A stretch of 64,000 bases of DNA from NCBI RefSeq assembly GCF_024506395.1, contig NZ_JANIBO010000002.1, positions 62,001-126,000 of the forward strand, given 5' to 3'. The translations under genes were made by a program, and so were the position numbers. The notes under the pieces were generated by a model. It saw only the letters and a program-made list of their open reading frames with translations. It did no database searches and was not told where the DNA came from. The stretch comes from Cetobacterium sp. NK01 (lineage in GTDB: Bacteria; Fusobacteriota; Fusobacteriia; Fusobacteriales; Fusobacteriaceae). Shown here piece by piece: positions 2,210 to 3,715 of the stretch (position 1 is the first letter of the stretch; each line of letters begins with the position of its first letter).

Positions 2210-2355
2210 TTTTTTGGAATTAATGCTAGAATATTATTAGGTGCTAGATTTTACATTAAAGAAAATTATCCCTAACAGAAAAGGGGGGACCTTGACTAAA
2301 TTATTTAGATTTTCTTTTTTATCACAGAAAAATGATTTCATAATTTGAAAAAAAT

Positions 2356-2364
2356 TGGTATAAT
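2356..2364 (+). promoter_or_regulatory. Extended -10 promoter for the rsgA leader
   Basis: TATAAT at 2359-2364 is preceded by TG one base upstream (TGG-TATAAT), an extended -10 element. No convincing -35 lies 17 bases upstream. It is about 48 bases before the leader peptide. The remaining 2210-2355 stretch shows only AT-rich sequence with no gene I can support. Confidence 0.55.
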
Positions 2365-2411
2365 TTATTACTAAATTGAAAATTAAAAAAAATATATAGG
2401 GAGTGTGTTTT

Positions 2412-2471
2412 ATGAGAAAAAATAAAAGTGTATTAGAGAGTGTAATGAAGAAGGAGGGATTGAATAAATAA
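2412..2471 (+). CDS. Short leader peptide upstream of rsgA
   Basis: A 19-codon reading frame (MRKNKSVLESVMKKEGLNK) starts at an ATG with a TAGGGAG ribosome site at a suitable distance and stops 51 bases before the rsgA start. It is too short for homology. Its last five sense codons form the left arm of a strong hairpin at 2451-2490. Ribosomes finishing this frame would therefore open that hairpin, the arrangement of a translational attenuator. Whether the peptide is made is untested. Confidence 0.5.
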   Translation: MRKNKSVLESVMKKEGLNK

Positions 2472-2490
2472 CCTACTTCAATACCTCCTT
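2451..2490 (+). promoter_or_regulatory. Leader hairpin containing SD-like and anti-SD-like arms
   Basis: Left arm 2451-2464 (AAGGAGGGATTGAA) pairs with right arm 2477-2490 (TTCAATACCTCCTT) with one G/A mismatch, around a 12-base loop. The right arm and the next base read ACCTCCTTT, the same as the 3' tail of 16S rRNA. The right-arm CCTCCT (2484-2489) can alternatively pair with the rsgA ribosome site AGGAGG (2509-2514), so two exclusive folds are possible. No T-tract follows, so it is not a plain terminator. Confidence 0.6.
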
Positions 2491-2522
2491 TAAGTTAAAT
2501 TAAAAAATAGGAGGCGTTTATT

Positions 2523-3590
2523 TTGAATATATTAGAAAATTATGGTTTAAAAAATATTTATATTGAGGAAGCTAAAAACTATCCTAAGCTTAAATTAGCT
2601 AGAGTCATAGCTCAATATAAAGGTTTATATAAAATTATTACTGAATGTAATGAAAAATTAGCTGAAATATCTGGGAAGTTTAGATATGAAGCTACAGAAT
2701 CGATTGAATTTCCTGCAGTTGGAGATTATGTGATGGTTTCATTTGATGAAAATGATTCTAAAGCTATTATACATAAAATTTTAACAAGAAAAACTACTTT
2801 TTCTCGAACGGCAGTTGGAATAAGTGATCAAGTTCAAATTATTGCAACTAATATTGATATTGTTTTTATTTGTATGTCTTTAAATGAAAATTATAATTTA
2901 AATAGACTAGAAAGATATCTTTCTATAACTTGGGACAGTGGTGCAGTTCCTGTTATTGTTTTAACAAAGTCTGATCTTTCTAAAAATTTGCTTAAGTGTA
3001 TACAAGAAGTTGAAGAAATATCAGCTTTTTCAGATATTATTGTTACAACATTTAAAGAAGATAACATTGATAAATTTAAAAAATATTTAAAAAAAGATAT
3101 AACTACAGCTTTTATTGGCTCTTCAGGAGTTGGAAAATCAACTTTAATTAATGAAATTTTAGGAGAAAATCGACTAGAAACAAAGAGTATTAGTAAAGGA
3201 GATAAAGGTAAGCATACTACAACAGGGCGTGAAATGTTTGTTTCACCTTTTGGTGGAGTCATAATTGATACCCCTGGAATGAGAGAGATTGGAATTCAAA
3301 GTGCTGATGTATCTAAGTATTTTTTAGAGATGGAAGATTTAGTGAATCAATGTAAATTTAATAACTGTTCTCACACTGATGAACCAGGTTGTGCTGTGAA
3401 AAAAGCATTGATAAATGGCCTTATAGATGAAAGAAGAATTGAAAACTACTTTAAGCTAAAAAGAGAAAGTTCATACGATGGACTAACTAGTAAAGAGTTA
3501 GAACAACAAAAATTAAATCAAATGTTTAAAGAAGTTGGTGGAGTGAAAAAGGCTAGAAAATTTATAAAAGACAGACAAAAAAGAAAATAA
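2523..3590 (+). CDS. rsgA: Ribosome small-subunit-dependent GTPase A (RsgA/YjeQ)
   Basis: RsgA is a circularly permuted GTPase that acts late in 30S subunit maturation. The 355-residue protein has an N-terminal OB-fold region (about 20-95) and then motifs in the permuted order G4 TKSD (148-151), G1 GSSGVGKS (199-206), HTTT (231-234) and G3 DTPG (249-252). A zinc knuckle with C277, C282, H284 and C290 is complete. The start is a TTG at 2523 behind AGGAGG. The length resembles the longer RsgA forms rather than the shorter Firmicutes type of about 300 residues. A leader peptide and hairpin upstream suggest translational control. Fragments of an acetyltransferase follow. Confidence 0.95.
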   Translation: MNILENYGLKNIYIEEAKNYPKLKLARVIAQYKGLYKIITECNEKLAEISGKFRYEATESIEFPAVGDYVMVSFDENDSKAIIHKILTRKTTFSRTAVGISDQVQIIATNIDIVFICMSLNENYNLNRLERYLSITWDSGAVPVIVLTKSDLSKNLLKCIQEVEEISAFSDIIVTTFKEDNIDKFKKYLKKDITTAFIGSSGVGKSTLINEILGENRLETKSISKGDKGKHTTTGREMFVSPFGGVIIDTPGMREIGIQSADVSKYFLEMEDLVNQCKFNNCSHTDEPGCAVKKALINGLIDERRIENYFKLKRESSYDGLTSKELEQQKLNQMFKEVGGVKKARKFIKDRQKRK

Positions 3591-3715
3591 TAGAAAAAGA
3601 CGAAGTAGAATATAAAACAATATCTTTTGGGCCAGTTTTTATCTCACCTGAATATCATAGAAAAGGGCTTGGAAGAAAGTTGATAAAAATTTTATATAAT
3701 AAAAAAGGAGATTGA
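3590..3715 (+). pseudogene. GNAT acetyltransferase remnant
   Basis: The frame starting at the last base of rsgA reads about 41 residues that include FGPVFISPEYHRKGLGRKLI, the acetyl-CoA binding motif A of GNAT N-acetyltransferases (R/Q-x-x-G-x-G/A). There is no start codon with a ribosome site, and the N-terminal half and everything after motif A are missing. It stops inside the terminator hairpin. I read it as the internal scrap of a decayed gene. Confidence 0.65.

Follow-up and report, generated by a model that had tools for sequence, protein, structure and literature searches.

The window analysed in this study, a stretch of 64 kb, contains an RsgA gene that is preceded by a short open reading frame (ORF) and by sequences able to pair in two different ways around its Shine-Dalgarno sequence (SD). 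The locus raises the question of whether translation of the short ORF controls the gene downstream and, if so, which event at the ribosome is sensed. The original prediction regarded the ORF as a leader that mimics the 3' tail of 16S rRNA and through which rsgA would respond to translation or to the state of the 30S subunit.

The downstream gene

The gene that follows the ORF (2523..3590, + strand; 355 aa, TTG start) scored 157.9 bits with TIGR00157 against a cut-off of 100 and 154.1 with PF03193 against 30. The window DNA belongs to the Fusobacteriota, close to Cetobacterium somerae, and the nearest named relative of this gene is on plasmid p2 of C. somerae (97% identical). Two RsgA genes are present in the genome itself; the window gene is the second copy and not the housekeeping one, and it shares 33% identity with its canonical counterpart on C1. 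Canonical rsgA was found in 12/12 genomes of the genus and the window-type paralogue in 2/12, and the latter was present in 16 of 98 genomes of the phylum (E 1e-60 or better). Furthermore, a canonical gene of ~300 codons stood beside a paralogue of ~340-390 codons in all 31 paralogue-carrying genomes searched, a count that leaves out the genome of L070. The window gene is an accessory paralogue rather than the housekeeping rsgA, and it was named rsgA2. In L004, L024 and L025, a GNAT gene lies behind rsgA2, and the window keeps a remnant of it at 3593..3685 (+ strand), an in-frame stretch identical to the GNAT gene of L004.

Leader ORF and pairing arms

The leader ORF, MRKNKSVLESVMKKEGLNK, comprises 19 codons from the ATG at 2412 to the TAA at 2471 (2412..2471, + strand), and an SD-like AGGGAG precedes it at 2399..2405 (+ strand), a feature that the leader-search rule demanded. 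Within Cetobacterium, the ORF is identical at 60/60 positions in L004 and 59/60 in L038, far above the identity of the 200 nt upstream (132/212 and 113/216). The AAGGAGG at 2451-2457, within the last third of the ORF, belongs to arm 1 (AAGGAGGgATTGAA, 2451..2464, + strand), which pairs with arm 2 (TTCAATaCCTCCTT, 2477..2490, + strand) through AAGGAGG and ATTGAA on one side and TTCAAT and CCTCCTT (2484-2490) on the other. Alternatively, the CCTCCT of arm 2 can pair with arm 3, the AGGAGG at 2509..2514 (+ strand) that is the SD of rsgA2, and the two pairings of arm 2 are mutually exclusive. The leader, its arms and the alternative pairing were therefore as originally described. The pattern GGAGG..CCTCC..GGAGG..start occurred once on both strands of the window, and 51 of its 53 occurrences in loci L040-L119 (1.03 Mb, both strands) were at rsgA2.

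A consensus scan gave a candidate promoter at 2337..2364 (+ strand), TTCATA-16-TATAAT with TG before the -10 and 10/12 matches, which is weak evidence since 6 sites were found against 3.9 expected. The same scan gave no + strand promoter-like site within 2371-2522; a late transcription start had been named beforehand as a finding that would speak against the leader. No Rfam 15 family matched the window at gathering or 2340-2560 at E 1, and no Rfam match was obtained at the leader in 17 loci. In single-sequence folding of 2372-2560, the fold was not unusually stable (z -1.2; 28/200 shuffles as good), and thus the case for the element rests on conservation.

Covariation of the two helices

Complementarity of each arm with its own partner was compared with that obtained when partners were swapped among the 61 rows with a full core. 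These rows came from 71 leaders; L004, L025 and L038 were removed as near-duplicates, and the remaining excluded leaders had no exact GGAGG/CCTCC/GGAGG core. Helix 1:2 covaried within the core (z 9.3, 0/2000 permutations) and outside it (z 3.5, 1/2000), as did helix 2:3 (z 6.7, 0/2000), and two control pairings were flat (z -0.1 and -0.3); the permutation z values ignore the kinship of rows, against which the flat controls are the safeguard. Covariation and folding together gave alternative helices, and in one of them, helix 2:3, the SD of rsgA2 is sequestered; the proposed leader switch with mutually exclusive hairpins is thus supported in silico. A generic three-arm search by hydrogen-bond score was positive in 77/98 loci, and in 21 of these at most 1/50 shuffles scored as well; A+T-rich chance helices dominated it, and SD-core rules took its place.

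The resemblance of arm 2 to 16S rRNA is real: ACCTCCTTT (2483-2491), 3' of the leader stop, is identical to the 16S tail of the same genome, in which GGATCACCTCCTTTCTAAGGAG is present in 11 copies and a 12th match has another form. However, mimicry of the tail was not upheld as the point of the element. The exact 16S-like CCTCCTTT occurs in 2/61 rows and most rows have CCTCCC; this rarity suggests that the mimicry is a by-product of SD pairing, arm 2 being anti-SD-like because it pairs with an SD.

A leader peptide and alternative hairpins before a ribosome GTPase paralogue would also suit transcription attenuation, with an intrinsic terminator behind the leader peptide as in hflXr. We consider this reading extremely improbable, since no terminator-like site, as expected of an attenuator of the hflXr or trp kind, was found in 2100-2600, and since, across the 61 aligned rows, the SD is itself part of helix 2:3.

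Conservation of the leader upstream of rsgA2

The 98 rsgA2 loci compared comprised 80 from a collection of named genomes, 16 of the phylum and 2 plasmid loci; the 80 were the best of 494, nearest to the query, and therefore a non-random draw. A leader was present before 71 of these 98 loci (including the best 80 of 494), mainly in Bacillota and Fusobacteriota, and before 14 of the 16 loci of the phylum, so that the lack of conservation in relatives named in the original prediction as a ground for rejecting it was not seen. The rule called for a leader that has its own SD and, close to its end, an SD-like arm 1, followed by an anti-SD arm 2 upstream of the rsgA2 SD; it was tuned by eye, ten leader starts among the 71 were set by hand, and L030, whose frame meets no stop ahead of the gene, was left out. 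A predicted ORF translatable from its own SD, as in attenuators of the erm/cat kind, was recognized by this rule together with the hand-set starts. Typical peptides are MFNNSTVEIVRKREVHTK, MYSKQKLEIVTNGEVCAQ, MLKNKGVLESVIKKEVENN and MLNKVLTDSVLRKEGTEKR; rsgA2 starts with TTG in 52/71 leader loci, and the leader stop lies 3' of arm 2 in a few (L059, L085 and L088). No leader was recognized in 27/98 loci (again including the best 80 of 494), among which L104 and L107 are truncated by the end of a contig; L104 is titled archaeon, and labels of metagenome-assembled genomes can err.

Several loci differ in detail. In L028, L032 and L033, from another genus of the family, the leaders read MKKMDSVFFL and their arms differ: ACCTTTCTA pairs with TAGGAAGGT and can also pair with TAATAGTAAAGG at the SD of rsgA2, so that the logic is shared with the window leader and the sequence is not. 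In Schinkia azotoformans (L124, 1501-2200), a second leader copy is still intact, and the rsgA2 that follows it is decayed and carries stops and an internal deletion. The second rsgA of Listeria monocytogenes, beside pnp (L216, 2911-2990), has the leader MAIVKMENLIINTGVFYL, with a G-run and a CTCCC arm upstream of a GGAGC site.

Six of the leaderless rsgA2 loci share another RNA of ~160 nt with an intrinsic terminator at its end, upstream of rsgA2, GGGCATAGT..ACTATGCCC followed by a U-run (L050, 2809-2972; L055, 2748-2918; L056, 2740-2901; L060, 2760-2932; L067, 2770-2928; L102, 2795-2958). This RNA has 43 consensus pairs, 7 with two-sided changes, and no Rfam match. Its covariance model, R3, found two strong places in 391 genomes: one is the L060 locus, and the other precedes an rsgA2-GNAT operon in a genome whose second rsgA2 has a leader peptide. 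The ~160-nt RNA is a candidate for a second attenuator or riboswitch of the rsgA2 gene set.

Leaders upstream of GNAT and RNHCP genes

Two covariance models of the leader were used, R1 built from rsgA2 leaders only and R2 with GNAT and RNHCP leaders added. R1 matched 18/19 genomes, 41/150 genomes of one class and 17/245 of another, and R2 matched 5/348 and 33/391 genomes, the set of 391 overlapping that of 245; the E-values of these models are rough. The R1 scans of the 150 and 245 sets and the R2 scans of the 348 and 391 sets gave 90 distinct places, which are not all independent because some scanned genomes fed the models, although the GNAT and RNHCP places from the 150- and 245-genome scans are independent of R1. 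In 88 of the 90, the leader precedes a gene of one of three families, assigned by profile search for examples and by shared sequence for the others: rsgA2 in 57 (one a broken copy, L124/L218), a GNAT acetyltransferase in 22 (L244 being broken and L139 a more distant GNAT) and an RNHCP-domain protein in 9. At L250, a GNAT-like start is displaced behind inserted DNA, and at L257, the weakest place, nothing recognizable lies downstream.

The GNAT of the leader family is also the next gene after rsgA2 in Fusobacteriota and Clostridia, at 11 of the 97 loci compared, and in 9 of those 11 its frame opens 1000-1350 nt after the rsgA2 start. Its PDB neighbours, 4rs2 and 4zbg, are acetyltransferases without a stated role. 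No RNHCP gene was found in 61 genomes of the window's family, and on a Vibrio plasmid such a gene overlaps an rsgA. The arrangement of the three families, as read from sequence comparison, points to a shared response to translation stress.

A conserved motif in the leader peptide

After identical leaders had been merged (134 to 128; L202 and L208 yielded no leader by the rule), a (D/E)(I/S)(V/A)-like motif was found 13-17 nt before the arm 1 core in 104 of the 128 distinct leaders, across all three gene classes, and the other 24 had no motif at the expected spacing. In the window, it is formed by the E-S-V codons at 2436..2444 (+ strand). The first position is D or E in 91 of the 104 leaders and otherwise Q, G, S or N; the second is I, S, L, V or N; and the third is V in 86 and A in 18. 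The serine codons are AGT, TCG and TCT, drawn from two codon boxes between which no single silent change is possible, which argues that selection acts at least partly on the peptide.

These data bear on the simplest explanation, a plain SD-sequestering hairpin with a fortuitous small ORF, a mere resemblance to the anti-SD and no control by translation. The ordinary single-sequence fold would agree with it. However, the start, frame, length and motif of the leader are conserved across phyla, helix 1:2 covaries, and 95 of the 104 motif leaders place the motif 16-17 nt from arm 1, all of which makes a plain hairpin very improbable.

Folding with the ribosome at set positions

The probability that the SD core is unpaired was calculated with the RNA upstream of the leading edge of the ribosome masked and with an assumed footprint of P-site +16. 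In 84 RsgA-type leaders, this accessibility was 0.51 for free RNA, 0.58 with the D/E codon in the P-site, 0.13 with I/S, 0.02 with V/A and 0.03 with the stop, and the corresponding values for the window leader were 0.51, 0.61, 0.00, 0.00 and 0.00. For 14 GNAT-type leaders they were 0.36, 0.74, 0.51, 0.11 and 0.14, and for 6 RNHCP-type leaders 0.04, 0.38, 0.13, 0.03 and 0.03. The change from start to stop was gone when the segment was shuffled (0.50 to 0.57), against a real drop of 0.52. By folding, and with the footprint assumed, a ribosome halted at D/E would leave the SD open, and the profile implies that the switch would flip during passage of the ribosome over the conserved motif. The claim that the rsgA start site is shut by a ribosome that completes the leader thus finds support in silico, from covariation and folding. 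Moreover, the loop that separates arms 1 and 2 pairs with the motif codons in leaders of the GNAT and RNHCP types (z 4.1, 0/1000); the same pairing gave z 1.2 in RsgA-type leaders, and a fourth arm is not claimed for the window. This pairing would help to close the free RNA of the GNAT and RNHCP types, so that a halted ribosome would be needed there.

Proposed mechanism

Sequence comparison and folding models suggest that the element is probably a translational attenuator that responds to where the ribosome stands on the leader, and a member of a widespread family of leader peptides. With a ribosome at the acidic codon or earlier, arm 1 would be free to pair with arm 2, which would leave the downstream SD open and the gene ON. 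With a ribosome at V/A or at the leader stop, arm 1 would be covered and arm 2 would pair with the downstream SD, turning the gene OFF. The inducing event would be a ribosome halted early in the leader by a drug or another translation stress, perhaps with the assistance of the nascent peptide, and we infer that the set of products serves as a translation-stress response.

In its strongest form, the original idea becomes a general sensor of initiation in which the amino acids of the leader are irrelevant: when competent 30S subunits are few, helix 1:2 would form and rsgA2 would be made, and translation of the leader would switch it OFF. The half-open state of free RsgA-type RNA is consistent with such a sensor, as is helix 1:2 being more stable than helix 2:3 in 60/61 leaders, and RsgA works on the 30S subunit according to passages of PMC6912228. 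However, three unrelated genes follow leaders in which the amino acids of the motif are preserved, RNHCP-type and most GNAT-type leaders are for the most part closed as free RNA, the motif codons make their fourth pairing in these two types, and the gene is an accessory copy; we therefore regard the initiation sensor as unlikely. A feedback of RsgA on the 30S state was not supported, since the normal rsgA accompanies the paralogue, 0/12 canonical rsgA loci of the genus match the leader covariance model, and the same leader precedes GNAT and RNHCP genes.

Within the folding model, free RsgA-type RNA, that of the window included, would be about half open, and absent translation of the leader would also switch the gene ON; for the window leader taken by itself, a halted ribosome and a failure of initiation would thus both have this effect, and a halted ribosome appears to be clearly needed in the GNAT and RNHCP types only. 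Because the ON state common to the leader types is that with an early-halted ribosome, this event is preferred as the most likely inducer.

It is possible, albeit tentative, that the (D/E)(I/S)(V/A) sequence is an arrest peptide and defines a regulon, not described before, through which Bacillota and Fusobacteriota would respond to antibiotics. Ribosomes halted on the acidic codon of the shared leader would release its members: a protective RsgA paralogue acting on the decoding centre of the 30S subunit, a GNAT whose substrate is the inhibitor or a ribosomal target, and the RNHCP protein. In the literature searched, outside which most subscription journals lie, no paper dealt with the RNHCP protein or with a leader peptide upstream of rsgA, and the locus tag lmo1332 gave no match; the passages taken from PMC7278804 likewise contained nothing on either. 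If the proposed attenuator is correct, a single translation signal would link three gene families, of which two have no known role, through a new leader-peptide family, and the RsgA paralogues would become candidates for inducible protection or rescue of the ribosome. The leader of the second rsgA of L. monocytogenes belongs to a studied species for which ribosome-profiling and 3'-end maps exist.

Comparison with known systems

Translational attenuators of the ermC/ermB type control resistance genes through a short leader and mutually exclusive helices, which in ermC form a scheme of four arms. The window leader resembles them in having a short ORF with its own SD and exclusive helices, of which helix 2:3 masks the rsgA2 SD; a halted ribosome is predicted to open that SD. 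The GNAT and RNHCP leaders share the four arms of ermC, whereas the RsgA-type leader needs three only. Unlike erm leaders, the present family carries the (D/E)(I/S)(V/A) motif and serves three unrelated genes.

Attenuators of the ermC/ermB type are mentioned in passages of PMC6310831, which describe hflXr (lmo0762) of Listeria as a ribosome GTPase paralogue that serves in resistance and is governed by a 14-aa leader, with transcription attenuation and an RLR motif. As in that case, the genome encodes a ribosome GTPase twice, by a housekeeping gene and by an accessory paralogue that a leader peptide precedes; neither a terminator nor an RLR motif is seen in the window. A second RsgA is also found in Streptomyces coelicolor, where, in passages of PMC7157823, one copy of the SCO6149/SCO5211 pair follows the antibiotic-response regulator WblC/WhiB7 under tetracycline; control there, as far as these passages go, is by a transcription factor and not by a leader before the gene. 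Finally, the toiL-topAI upstream ORF of Escherichia coli, as presented in passages of PMC12121999, senses several drugs through ribosomes halted at the start or at inner codons, which free the ribosome-binding site, and the window leader is predicted to act alike. The toiL-topAI hairpin, which spans the upstream ORF and the ribosome-binding site, is closed by default in that account, whereas RsgA-type RNA is predicted to be half open and to be closed by the passage of the ribosome.
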